Source: Phycisphaerae bacterium (lineage in GTDB: Bacteria > Planctomycetota > Phycisphaerae > Tepidisphaerales > Tepidisphaeraceae). Taken from it: DNA of 46,069 nucleotides. The notes beneath the pieces are model-generated. The model was not told where the DNA came from. It saw nothing but the letters and a program-made list of their open reading frames with translations, and did no database searches. The stretch is taken from contig JAICIO010000040.1 in assembly GCA_025924315.1 (NCBI GenBank), positions 1 to 46,069 on the forward strand, in the 5' to 3' direction. Shown here piece by piece: positions 4,044-41,929 of this stretch; within the stretch, counting starts at the first letter, position 1, and every line of letters starts with the position of its first letter. Made by a program: the position numbers and the translations under genes.

Positions 4044-4063
4044 GGGCATTCGGTGATCGAACG

Positions 4064-4141
4064 CGCGGAGCTACGCTCCGCCGCTAAATAGTGGAGAGCT
4101 CGCGTTCGCGGAATAGTTAGCGGCGGAGCGCAGCTCCGCGG
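4064..4141. repeat. TTAGC-type paired hairpin repeat between convergent genes
   Basis: The left arm contains CGCGGAGCTACGCTCCGC followed by CGCTAAAT. The right arm contains AGTTAGCGGCGGAGCG followed by CAGCTCCGCGG. Here the TTAGC ends face inward, the reverse of the arrangement at 1176-1252. It sits between the 3' ends of the permease (plus) and the TMTC-like gene (minus), where paired hairpins could also limit read-through. No U-tract terminator is visible. Confidence 0.7.
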
Positions 4142-4148
4142 ATTCGGC

Positions 4149-6083: not shown

Positions 6084-6165
6084 TGGGAGGGCGAGGCTCC
6101 CGCCAAGTCGATTCCCTCTGCGAAATCCCGGCGCGCCGGGACTCGGCATGAGCCTCGCCCTCCCA
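6084..6165. repeat. GGGAGGGCGAGGCTC-type inverted repeat
   Basis: A perfect 16-bp inverted repeat (TGGGAGGGCGAGGCTC at 6084-6099, its complement at 6150-6165) encloses a central palindrome TCCCGGCGCGCCGGGA. The outer arm recurs at 36231-36306. The inner core recurs in the 36-nt palindrome at 32704-32739, so the two palindromes share sequence. It lies between the tRNA and the FAH-family gene. Confidence 0.75.
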
Positions 6166-12037: not shown

Positions 12038-12625
12038 TCACCTGAAGCCCGCACAAATCGCGAAGACAATCATGAACGCCAGCGCCGGCGACAATACGAG
12101 GCCCGCGGCAAACGTTCGCACGCCCGGAATAAACAGCAGAACCACGCCGATAAGCACCGGCCCGCAGATCGAGATCATCGGATCGCGCGTGAGCGAGGCC
12201 AATCCAAGCATCGCACCAATACCGACAACCCCGCCTACGATGAACAGGCCGAACCCGCCCACGGCGCGAGCGACCTTCCTCGCGGTATGGCGCGCGGGAG
12301 GTCGACCGTACTCGAGGATTCGATCGGTCGCCGAGCGCTGCACGATGGTCGACGGGTTGTCCACGGCAAATGATTCATGCGCTGAGTTGCGCGGGATGCT
12401 CATGATTACCGCGATTGCGACCGCGAGCATAACGACGAAGAATACGATCGCGTTCATGCCTGCGGGCAATCCACCATGCACCACCGCGACGAGCCCCACG
12501 ATGATCAGGATAAACAATCCGAAGATGACAAATCGCCCGACGCGACTGTCACCTTCCGCCTGCGCGAGGGTACCGAGAGGCAGAACCGGCTTCGGTGGTT
12601 CAGGTTGTTGTGGGCTGTCGGTCAT
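12038..12625 (-). CDS. Membrane protein of unknown function
   Basis: A 195-residue protein with a Pro-rich N-terminal tail (about 20 residues) and two pairs of membrane segments separated by a soluble linker (about 80-115). No family is recognised. Its ATG overlaps the lgt stop by 4 nt (12622-12625), so it is probably translated after Lgt from the same mRNA. Confidence 0.6.
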   Translation of the reverse strand: MTDSPQQPEPPKPVLPLGTLAQAEGDSRVGRFVIFGLFILIIVGLVAVVHGGLPAGMNAIVFFVVMLAVAIAVIMSIPRNSAHESFAVDNPSTIVQRSATDRILEYGRPPARHTARKVARAVGGFGLFIVGGVVGIGAMLGLASLTRDPMISICGPVLIGVVLLFIPGVRTFAAGLVLSPALAFMIVFAICAGFR

Positions 12626-13482
12626 GCATTCGCGTCGGCCGATTGAACCGGGAGCATCACGATACGGTCACGATTCATTCCGCGGCCGGTCCAAAGTTGC
12701 GCGAAGCAGACGATCGCACCGACGAGCGACGCGACCTGAATCGCGCTGAGTCCAAGATATGGATTGAACCGCGGTTTGATGAATTCAATAAGGAATCGCC
12801 AAGTGAGATATCCGCCGAGGAATGAGCGGAAGAGAACACCGGAAGGATGGGCTCTTGTAGGGTCCGTTTCAGCGGACCGGTTACTCGCCTTTTCGCGGGC
12901 CGGAAATAACCTATCCGCTGAAGCGGACCCTACAAGGATACGAAGCGCGATCGCAAAAAGAGCGAGGAAAGCTGCTTCATACAACTGCGTCGGATGCCGC
13001 GGGCCGTCGCCGAAATCGACTGCCCAGGGCAGGCTGCTGTGAATGCCGTAGGTGTGGTCGGGAAGACCGGTGAGAAAACAGCCGATGCGCCCGATCGCCA
13101 TGCCGAGACAGAGTGGATAGACGAAGAGATCACCGGTTGATCGACGAATGCCGAGGCGGCGCTTTGCGATCTCCACGCCGATCCATCCGCCGAGCAGTCC
13201 GCCGACGATCGTCTTTCCGCCCATGAACGCCCGCGGATCCGCGCGCAGGTTCCAGTAATCGATCGGCGATTCGACGAGCGCGAGAATCTTAGAACCAACC
13301 AGCGCGCCGAAGACGCAACCCACGATCACCCACATGTTCTGCTCGATCGGCACGCGCTGGGCGGGCGAGCGACGACGTAGCCAGAGATAGAACTGAAACC
13401 CCAGCGTGTATCCCGCTAACTCAAACACCGCGTGCGCGGGCACCGGAATCCCGAAAGGATGGAAGACGACGGGAAAGGTCAT
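12622..13482 (-). CDS. lgt: Prolipoprotein diacylglyceryl transferase with repeat-derived insert
   Basis: A 286-residue Lgt, the membrane enzyme that moves diacylglycerol from phosphatidylglycerol to the lipobox Cys of prolipoproteins. Family features are FHPFGIPVPAHAVFELAGYT near the N-terminus, GGKTIVGGLLGGWIGVE, the signature GMAIGRIGCFLTGLPDHTYG and the final WRFLIEF. Residues about 184-208 (GSASADRLFPAREKASNR onward) match nothing in the family and are encoded by the REP-like palindrome at 12857-12933. The insert keeps the frame and falls in the loop before the last helix, where PSGVLF corresponds to the usual RPGE-F region. Starts at ATG 13482 after GGCGG. It follows pilO by 49 bp. Confidence 0.85.
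   Translation of the reverse strand: MTFPVVFHPFGIPVPAHAVFELAGYTLGFQFYLWLRRRSPAQRVPIEQNMWVIVGCVFGALVGSKILALVESPIDYWNLRADPRAFMGGKTIVGGLLGGWIGVEIAKRRLGIRRSTGDLFVYPLCLGMAIGRIGCFLTGLPDHTYGIHSSLPWAVDFGDGPRHPTQLYEAAFLALFAIALRILVGSASADRLFPAREKASNRSAETDPTRAHPSGVLFRSFLGGYLTWRFLIEFIKPRFNPYLGLSAIQVASLVGAIVCFAQLWTGRGMNRDRIVMLPVQSADANA
12857..12933. repeat. GTAG-headed hairpin pair inside the lgt coding sequence
   Basis: The left unit is GTAG then GGTCCGTTTCAGCGGACC (one G-U pair). The right unit on the minus strand is GTAG then GGTCCGCTTCAGCGGATA. Each is followed by a GGTTAYT-like stretch. This is the same family as 30648-30723, 34926-34997 and 41851-41925. The whole element is translated as part of Lgt without a stop codon, which is unusual because its siblings here are intergenic. 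Confidence 0.85.
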
Positions 13483-13531: not shown

Positions 13532-14080
13532 TCAGTCCGGCTCGACGAACCAGACGATCTCGAAGCTGAATGTGGCGGGAGCGTTGGGGGCGTTGCCGTT
13601 GCGCAGATCGAACGTCGCGATCGCCATATCGCCGAAACGCTGGTGAAGATCGTGGAAAAAGGCTGTGCAGTTTGGGTACGTGCCGTTGCCGGAGACGTGA
13701 ATGGGCATCTGCGAATAGCGGGCGGCGCGGATGAGCGTTCCCGGACGGACGTCCTGCATGTCGAGGCCGGCTTTCTGCGAGAAATCCGCGAGCTCAGACA
13801 ATCGCTGATTCAGCTGTCGGACGGACTGAAGCTGCAGATGGCTGGTGGAAAGCTGCGCTTGGGCCGTCGCGAGCTTCGCCCGGAGAACCCGCGCGGTTCC
13901 CTGCAGACGCTCGGTTTTTTCCTGCTGCTGTTCCAGGTCGTCGCGCTGCGCGTTGATCGCCTCTCGCTGCGAAAGAAGCGGCATAAAGCCGAGCAGGTAC
14001 ACGAGCGCTGTCGCAACGATGCAGGCGCCGACTGCCGAAGCGTCGATCGTCAGCCATTTCATGTTCGACGGAAGCTTCAC
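13532..14080 (-). CDS. pilO: PilO-like type IV pilus/T2SS inner-membrane protein
   Basis: A 182-residue bitopic protein: a short cytoplasmic tail, one membrane segment (about 14-35), a coiled coil (about 40-95, rich in Gln, Glu and Leu) and a small C-terminal ferredoxin-like domain. Size and layout fit PilO/GspM, which pairs with PilN in the inner-membrane alignment complex linking the ATPase platform to the secretin. The identification rests mostly on position, since it follows PilM and PilN and overlaps pilN by 4 nt (14077-14080). Confidence 0.75.
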   Translation of the reverse strand: MKLPSNMKWLTIDASAVGACIVATALVYLLGFMPLLSQREAINAQRDDLEQQQEKTERLQGTARVLRAKLATAQAQLSTSHLQLQSVRQLNQRLSELADFSQKAGLDMQDVRPGTLIRAARYSQMPIHVSGNGTYPNCTAFFHDLHQRFGDMAIATFDLRNGNAPNAPATFSFEIVWFVEPD

Positions 14081-14688
14081 GATCCACCTCCGTTATTGAG
14101 CGAGCATTCGATGCGGAACGCAAACGCTTCGCCGGACGCGAACGGCTCGCGGCTGGTCTTGATGAGCGTCACTTGATCGAACAACTTTGCCTCTTCGAGT
14201 CGAAGAACAAAGTGCGAGACCGCCGCCTGGGAGCGACCGTAGCCGGTGATGGTGACCAGATGCGACGCGGCCGACTGGGTCGTCGGTGCTTTGCCCACAA
14301 CAGCCTTTGGCCCATCGCTTCGATCGAGCCGGCACTGCGTCAGTACAATTTGATCGGTGGAGGCCTTGGCGAGAAGCTTCAGCAGAATGCTCCAATCGGG
14401 CTGCTCGTCGATCGCGGTGATCATGTCGAGTTTGCCCTGCGCTTCGGCCAGCTCCGGCTGAAGCTTCGCGATCATGCGTTGGCTTTCTTCGAGCTGGCGG
14501 CTCGCACGTTCCGATTGCGCCGCGACCGCGGCCTGATCACCACCCCAGATTGCATAGCTCAGTCCGCACGCGACGATGAGCAGCAGGGCATATGTGCCAC
14601 CGCCAACCGCCCAGGCGCGCAGCCGAAACGATCGCGCATGCGCGTCGCGCCGGTGCATCGGAACGAGGTTAATGCATTTCGTCTTCAT
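14077..14688 (-). CDS. pilN: PilN-like type IV pilus/T2SS inner-membrane protein
   Basis: A 203-residue bitopic protein starting MKTKCINLVPMHRRDA. The INLVP motif just before the membrane segment (about 29-48) is the short peptide by which PilN binds PilM. A coiled coil (about 52-90) and a small periplasmic alpha/beta domain follow, as in PilN. Four-nucleotide overlaps join it to pilM upstream and pilO downstream, indicating translational coupling in the order needed to assemble the PilMNO complex. Confidence 0.85.
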   Translation of the reverse strand: MKTKCINLVPMHRRDAHARSFRLRAWAVGGGTYALLLIVACGLSYAIWGGDQAAVAAQSERASRQLEESQRMIAKLQPELAEAQGKLDMITAIDEQPDWSILLKLLAKASTDQIVLTQCRLDRSDGPKAVVGKAPTTQSAASHLVTITGYGRSQAAVSHFVLRLEEAKLFDQVTLIKTSREPFASGEAFAFRIECSLNNGGGS

Positions 14689-24894: not shown

Positions 24895-24942
24895 GGGCGC
24901 GATGATCTAGGAGGGAAGACGCTTCGTCCAGTGGCGACGAAG

Positions 24943-25021
24943 ATGCCGCCCGGCGCTGCGCTCTGGGACGGCCCTGAGTGCTACATACCCGGCCGTCCAT
25001 GTGCGCAGCGCCGGGCGGCAT
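24943..25021. repeat. 19-bp perfect inverted repeat element
   Basis: ATGCCGCCCGGCGCTGCGC at 24943-24961 is repeated in perfect inverted form at 25003-25021. A partial second copy of the left arm and its flank is found at 30815-30853, including CTCTGGGACGGCC. It lies between the oxidoreductase start and the BNR lipoprotein stop. Confidence 0.75.
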
Positions 25022-30603: not shown

Positions 30604-30647
30604 AATTCCGAACACGGCGGGCGCGATTTGGAATGCCGGCTGAGTTT

Positions 30648-30723
30648 GTACGGTGCGCTTCAGCGCACCGGTCATTTCTCCTGGGCACATCTGCAATAAC
30701 CGGTGCGCTGAAGCGCACCCTAC
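30648..30723. repeat. GTAG-type hairpin pair, REP-like
   Basis: The left unit has GTAC in place of GTAG, then GGTGCGCTTCAGCGCACC. The right unit on the minus strand is GTAG followed by the same 18-nt hairpin. After the left unit comes a GGTCATTT stretch, and on the minus strand GGTTATT. It is intergenic between REC-PP2C and the methyltransferase. Confidence 0.8.
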
Positions 30724-30814
30724 ACAGGCGCGAGCAAGCGGGGTCTCGCGCCAACTTCCTTCATACCATCGTCGATGCAGGATTTCCGCCAAAATCAGGG
30801 AAAGTTTTTCGAAG

Positions 30815-30853
30815 CCCTCAAGGCCGTCCCAGAGCGAAGCGGCGGGCGGCATC
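30815..30853. repeat. Partial copy of the 24943-25021 element
   Basis: On the minus strand this reads ATGCCGCCCGCCGCTTCG then CTCTGGGACGGCCTTGAG, closely matching the left half of the element at 24943. It is a single arm without its partner. Confidence 0.55.
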
Positions 30854-34919: not shown

Positions 34920-34925
34920 GAGTGC

Positions 34926-34997
34926 GTAGGGTGCGCTTCAGCGCACCGGTTATTTTCTTCGAAAGGCAAATAACCGGTCCGCTGAAGCGGACCCTAC
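34926..34997. repeat. GTAG-headed hairpin pair with differing arms
   Basis: The left hairpin is GGTGCGCTTCAGCGCACC, the right (minus strand) GGTCCGCTTCAGCGGACC. Position 4 of the stem differs (G versus C) with a matching change on the other side, so base pairing is kept. It lies 6 bp upstream of the glycosidase start. Confidence 0.85.
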
Positions 34998-35007
34998 GCA
35001 GACCGAG

Positions 35008-36113: not shown

Positions 36114-36230
36114 ATTCAAACCCTCCGATGAGATCCGCCTGGCGAGCGGTCTCTGCAGGTTTGATCGGGCAGGCAGCGGGGGGACTTGGGCCGAGAAAAA
36201 GATTCCTTTCAGTGGTGATAATGTTGTCCC

Positions 36231-36306
36231 GCGAGGGCGAGGCTCAGGCCGAGCCGATCTGTGTGGCATGGCACAGAAACGGCTCGGCGGGAGCCTCGCC
36301 CTCCCG
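36231..36306. repeat. GAGGGCGAGGCTC-type inverted repeat
   Basis: GCGAGGGCGAGGCTC at 36231 and GAGCCTCGCCCTCCCGC ending at 36306 are inverted arms. Inner arms GGCCGAGCCG and CGGCTCGGCGGG form a second stem. The same outer arm occurs at 6084-6165. Confidence 0.65.
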
Positions 36307-41827: not shown

Positions 41828-41850
41828 TGAACTGCATTCTTGAGGCTCTT

Positions 41851-41925
41851 GTAGGGTCCGCTTCAGCGGACCGGTTACTTGCCTTTCGACGCAGGGAGTA
41901 ACCGGTCCGCTGGAGCGGACCCTAC
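41851..41925. repeat. GTAG-headed hairpin pair between convergent genes
   Basis: The left hairpin is GGTCCGCTTCAGCGGACC then GGTTACTT. The right unit (minus strand) is GTAG then GGTCCGCTCCAGCGGACC then GGTTACT. The only difference between arms is in the loop. It lies between the cytochrome and lspA 3' ends. Confidence 0.85.
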
Positions 41926-41929
41926 ACTT

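Follow-up and report, generated by a model that had tools for sequence, protein, structure and literature searches.

How does a short palindromic repeat come to be read as part of a membrane protein, and what becomes of the gene that receives it? The question is raised by an lgt-like gene in a 46,069-nucleotide stretch of DNA (the window; contig JAICIO010000040.1) from a Phycisphaerae bacterium, whose genome is available as a draft assembly of 262 contigs (GCA_025924315.1). The gene occupies positions 12622-13482 of the minus strand, encodes an Lgt-family protein of 286 aa, and contains a repeat element at residues ~184-209.

The element and its reading frame

The element at 12857-12933 is 77 nt long and consists of two REP arms, inverted copies of one unit, placed around a short spacer. 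The first arm (GTAGGGTCCGTTTCAGCGGACCGGTTA, 12857-12883, plus strand) has one change relative to the family consensus, and the second, inverted arm (12907-12933, reading GTAGGGTCCGCTTCAGCGGATAGGTTA on the minus strand) has two. The plus-strand letters, GTAGGGTCCGTTTCAGCGGACCGGTTACTCGCCTTTTCGCGGGCCGGAAATAACCTATCCGCTGAAGCGGACCCTAC, start with GTAGGGTCCGTTTCAGCGGACCGG and finish with CCTATCCGCTGAAGCGGACCCTAC, forming an inverted GTAG...CTAC pair over the full 77 nt. A complete paired-hairpin element, as the preliminary description had it, is thus confirmed at this site; classified by its sequence, it is a REP dimer (REPIN) of the GTAG type. The whole copy differs from the family consensus at about four positions, two of them synonymous in the lgt frame. 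It is flanked by CTT on one side and the complement on the other, the usual flank before GTAG in the family being pyrimidine-T-T. With these symmetric CTT/AAG flanks the unit extends over 12854-12936, and the RNA of these 83 bases, in the sense of the lgt message, folds at -55.1 kcal/mol (z = -9.1), a stability reached by none of 200 shuffled sequences.

In the gene, the element codes for V184-T209 without a stop codon, adding the ~26 residues VGSASADRLFPAREKASNRSAETDPT. The earlier claim of an in-frame segment of about 25 residues (184-208) with no stop or frameshift therefore holds, with 26 codons in the numbering used here. Since 77 is not a multiple of three, a net in-frame gain needs either one additional base, giving 78 nt (26 codons), or a minor deletion or other compensating change; the added residues follow from this net multiple of three together with the stop-free frame of the element. 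A coding-potential model calls one gene straight across the insert. Conserved Lgt sequence extends over 183 residues before the insert and 77 after it, with the blocks HPTQLYE... and SGVLFRSFLGGYLTWRFLIEFIKP on its two flanks, so no alternative start can take the element out of the gene, and a misannotated start is excluded. The gene downstream overlaps lgt by 4 nt, and the two therefore probably share a message. Directly upstream, on the same strand, are genes that match PilO and PilN (window 13532-14688).

A REPIN family at the ends of genes

Four further dimers of the family were found in the window, at 238-303, 30647-30724, 34923-35000 and 41850-41926, the last with its first 43 nt 95% like the lgt copy; all four are intergenic as previously described, none lying inside a called gene. 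The window also contains at least three other families of inverted repeats that are like REPs in size but have no sequence relation to the GTAG family (4058-4146, 6084-6165, 24942-25021, 30813-30853 and 36230-36306).

A genome search, proposed as a check on the element, recovered about 400 pairs. The REP arm pattern was matched 407 times in forward and 402 times in reverse orientation over many contigs of the 6.57-Mb genome, and the reversed-pattern control has none in either direction, which excludes chance. The family consensus is GTAG, conserved at 97-100% per base, followed by a palindromic stem GGTSCGC..GCGSACC. In an unbiased sample, 1.33 Mb on C1-C11 chosen without regard to repeats, 83 dimers were identified, all in the order GTAG...CTAC, and 83 of 84 close neighbouring arm pairs were ordered plus then minus. 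Dimer length ranged from 53 to 83 nt with a mode of 75. No consistent target-site duplication was detected, 138 of 154 dimers having none at all.

The copies are concentrated at the 3' ends of genes. Among the 83 unbiased dimers, 58 are intergenic, 24 overlap the end of a gene, and one lies in a weak ORF three codons from its end; 63 lie no more than 20 nt from the 3' end of a gene, and in 22 the TAG of GTAG is the exact stop codon of the neighbouring gene. A wider census covered 165 dimers in ~2.3 Mb (~35% of the genome), some of the added contigs having been chosen because they had matches, and of these 165 only the lgt copy lies deep in a gene. Computation shows that the frame would be kept open in 9-15% of random intragenic insertions. 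With random insertion, harmless in-frame copies and a coding density of 88%, about 13-21 of the 165 dimers would be expected in frame; with one deep in-frame copy observed, in-frame survivors are strongly depleted, through either selection or target choice.

Searching with the translated insert (tblastn) gave more than 80 matches in the genome, some within long open frames. Widespread in-frame insertion was considered and rejected: gene calling placed the examined cases between genes or overlapping gene ends, leaving only a C-terminal tail at C22:14285-14361 and a weak ORF at C6:18051. The former is a REPIN of the same family, read in the same frame as in lgt, that forms the tail (VGSASADRLFSVSTKKINRSAEADP...) of a 384-aa protein and finishes ...SSTVGSASADRLFSVSTKKINRSAEADPTQATRI*. 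By eye, the 384-aa protein resembles a glycosyltransferase.

REPINs are non-autonomous elements that depend for their spread on HUH/Y1 tyrosine transposases (RAYT/IS200 type). RAYT-like Y1 proteins are encoded in the genome, the best at C7:92718 scoring 61 bits against a family cut-off of 80, with several weaker. Except for one arm near C235, no arms of the family bracket the RAYT-like genes within 1.5 kb. Two arms flank the Y1 gene at C56:29371; this gene is IS200-type and apparently nested in a REPIN spacer, and was not accepted as proof of a cognate REPtron. At that locus (L155, ~1316-2058), the IS200-family gene has its own subterminal hairpins between the two REPIN arms, as if inserted into the spacer.

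The Lgt-like protein and its variable loop

The 286-aa protein matches the Pfam LGT family (PF01790) with E = 4.2e-23 and 82.4 bits against a cut-off of 24.9, but misses the NCBIfam lgt equivalog cut-offs, with 28.3 bits against 118.9 for TIGR00544 and 38 against 334 for NF000778. A family search found two LGT proteins in the genome, one at C115:16031-16903 with 169 bits and the window protein with 80. The C115 protein scores above the window protein on the NCBIfam lgt models, yet it too is under the cut-off. About half of the same-family genomes have a match of the window type, and nearly all have an LGT match of some kind. Given the better C115 Lgt, the scores below the NCBIfam cut-offs and the distribution of the type, the window protein is a divergent Lgt paralogue with a putative enzymatic role, and plausibly under relaxed constraint. 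To call it an essential-type enzyme, as had been done, was an overstatement.

The gene nevertheless looks intact. R132 and R229 (in the GR..G signature and in FR..xEF of TM6) are invariant in the subfamily and align to E. coli Lgt, and all 21 subfamily-invariant columns are kept, in agreement with the earlier statement that the Lgt motifs are intact. In the protein tree the window protein has a branch of 0.42 (median 0.47), an ordinary length that gives no sign of long decay.

Among the sequences compared, only this protein has the insert. Eleven distantly related same-family orthologues and 24 homologues spanning Planctomycetota, Acidobacteriota, Bacteroidota, Pseudomonadota and others were aligned, three being shared, and it was absent from all 32 distinct sequences; the suggested comparison of relatives was thus made at the level of the family and beyond. 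At the insert site the loop of the same-family orthologues measures 7-24 residues, is unrelated in sequence and has no repeat. The objection that relatives might carry a non-repeat version of the same stretch does not apply, their sequence there being unrelated or shorter, and the range of loop lengths bears out the expectation that a change of length is tolerated at the site. In one orthologue of the Lgt-like protein (L046, G003:C51), a single open frame of 790 aa joins it to a domain that is radical-SAM-like, with a CxxxCxxC motif recognised by eye.

A structure was predicted by AlphaFold2 with a 25-row alignment (mean pLDDT 84.5). Confidence exceeds 90 over most of the core and averages 50-53 in the blocks over residues 191-210. 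Modelled helices 165-183 and 216-235 bracket the insert, with one more helix after them at 247-265. Of the seven transmembrane helices, the fifth and sixth are thus predicted to be joined by the loop that has the insert; its placement in a loop agrees with the preliminary description, but the loop is not the one before the last helix, since two helices follow in the model. The fold resembles E. coli Lgt (5azb/5azc) by Foldseek, 5azb being the only significant match in the PDB (E = 7.8e-6), and a profile match to the E. coli protein gives E = 1.5e-18. The two proteins differ in being only 20% identical and in the signature, GRLGNFING in E. coli and GRIGCFLTG in the window protein; loop 5-6 of the E. 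coli enzyme is short and without an insert, whereas that of the window protein has the ~26 additional residues. Loop 5-6 of E. coli Lgt is cytoplasmic. By analogy with this topology, the insert loop would be on the cytoplasm side.

Origin of the insert and its significance

The evidence argues with high confidence for a transposed REPIN of the GTAG class, translated in frame and tolerated in loop 5-6 of an Lgt-like paralogue. This reading is grounded in the membership of the element in its family by sequence, the open frame, the absence of the insert from relatives, the low-confidence modelled loop and the second Lgt in the genome. One copy, presumably moved by a RAYT, would have inserted into the part of the gene that encodes the loop between helices 5 and 6, on the cytoplasm side. 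Its survival is proposed to rest on the variable length of this loop in the family and on the second Lgt in the genome; the insert-bearing protein is probably expressed and working, and the insert neutral.

The insertion could instead have inactivated the gene, leaving a decaying Lgt-like pseudogene whose frame is open by accident, permitted by the second Lgt. Such a fate would fit the better Lgt at C115, the occurrence of the subfamily in only about half of the same-family genomes, and an 83-base hairpin of -55 kcal/mol inside the message. It is unlikely given the lack of any stop or frameshift, the 21 of 21 invariant residues, the ordinary branch and the single gene called across the insert, although a recent inactivation would be expected to leave no marks of decay in any case, which weakens their absence as an argument. 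Draft assembly is another possible source of error, since ~400 near-identical repeats in 262 contigs invite misjoins, and collapse of short repeats might have placed a REPIN in lgt. Both halves of lgt flank the repeat with strand and frame matching, however, and the lgt copy differs from the consensus and from every other copy compared; an artefact is thus the least probable of the explanations.

Recruitment of the element, either as a hairpin that tunes the mRNA of the lgt operon or as an added loop that changes the protein, kept by selection, would make a selfish repeat a working part of a membrane enzyme, and the loop could give the paralogue a lineage-specific property. The strong RNA hairpin and the probably shared message with the overlapping downstream gene are consistent with this, as are the two synonymous changes among about four, but such a proportion is not surprising. 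Only one genome was found to have the insert, for which AlphaFold2 models no fold, and the other copies of the family, at gene ends, fit tolerance rather than recruitment, which is accordingly rated as very improbable. The most likely explanation remains a REPIN that is tolerated by a non-essential paralogue, in a loop of variable length.

Translated REP dimers have precedents. A 2013 study (BMC Genomics, PMC3733652) defined GTAG REPs, recorded them in Planctomycetes, observed that neighbouring ORFs often take their TAG stop codon from GTAG, and described translated dimers of the GTAG type within genes of several species. More than half of the REPs inside ORFs were dimers or groups encoding 20-30 residues, and O. 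terrae, of the PVC superphylum, had the most intragenic cases among the GTAG genomes (PMC3733652). The lgt case matches that description of intragenic GTAG/CGTC dimers point by point: a GTAG-tagged palindrome, an inverted pair with a short spacer, an otherwise normal protein, an insert of 20-30 residues, and the TAG of GTAG as the stop codon of neighbours. The phenomenon is therefore not new, and the earlier view that repeat-derived protein segments are uncommon for small REP-like units is not sustained. Two differences stand out: here one deep insertion is found among 165 pairs, compared with the O. terrae genome, which has the most of the GTAG genomes, and the target is an Lgt-family membrane protein, a type absent from the targets named in the main text of that paper.

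REPINs were defined by Bertels and Rainey as two inverted REPs with a variable spacer, associated with RAYT transposases and described as extragenic (PMC8049555). The present family shares with these systems the inverted REPs, the variable spacer, hundreds of copies and, as candidates below the family cut-off, RAYT-like genes in the genome, and differs in that the lgt copy is intragenic and that no RAYT bracketed by the family's REPs was found here within 1.5 kb. An older example of a palindromic repeat translated in frame is provided by the Rickettsia palindromic elements (Ogata et al.; reviewed in PMC10969869), which are ~150 bp, lie in genes in nearly half of the cases and are translated in unrelated proteins; the element described here is ~77 nt and almost always between genes.

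Translated REPINs are thus a known phenomenon, of which this example is real and locally rare. The specific interest of the lgt case is the genome-wide background against which the copy stands alone. As an example of a small mobile palindrome turned protein it is clean, and its background can be counted: ~400 copies, a strong bias to the 3' ends of genes and one copy that survives in frame deep in a gene provide a gauge of the resistance of genes to inserts, and the lgt copy also shows where in a protein such inserts are tolerated.
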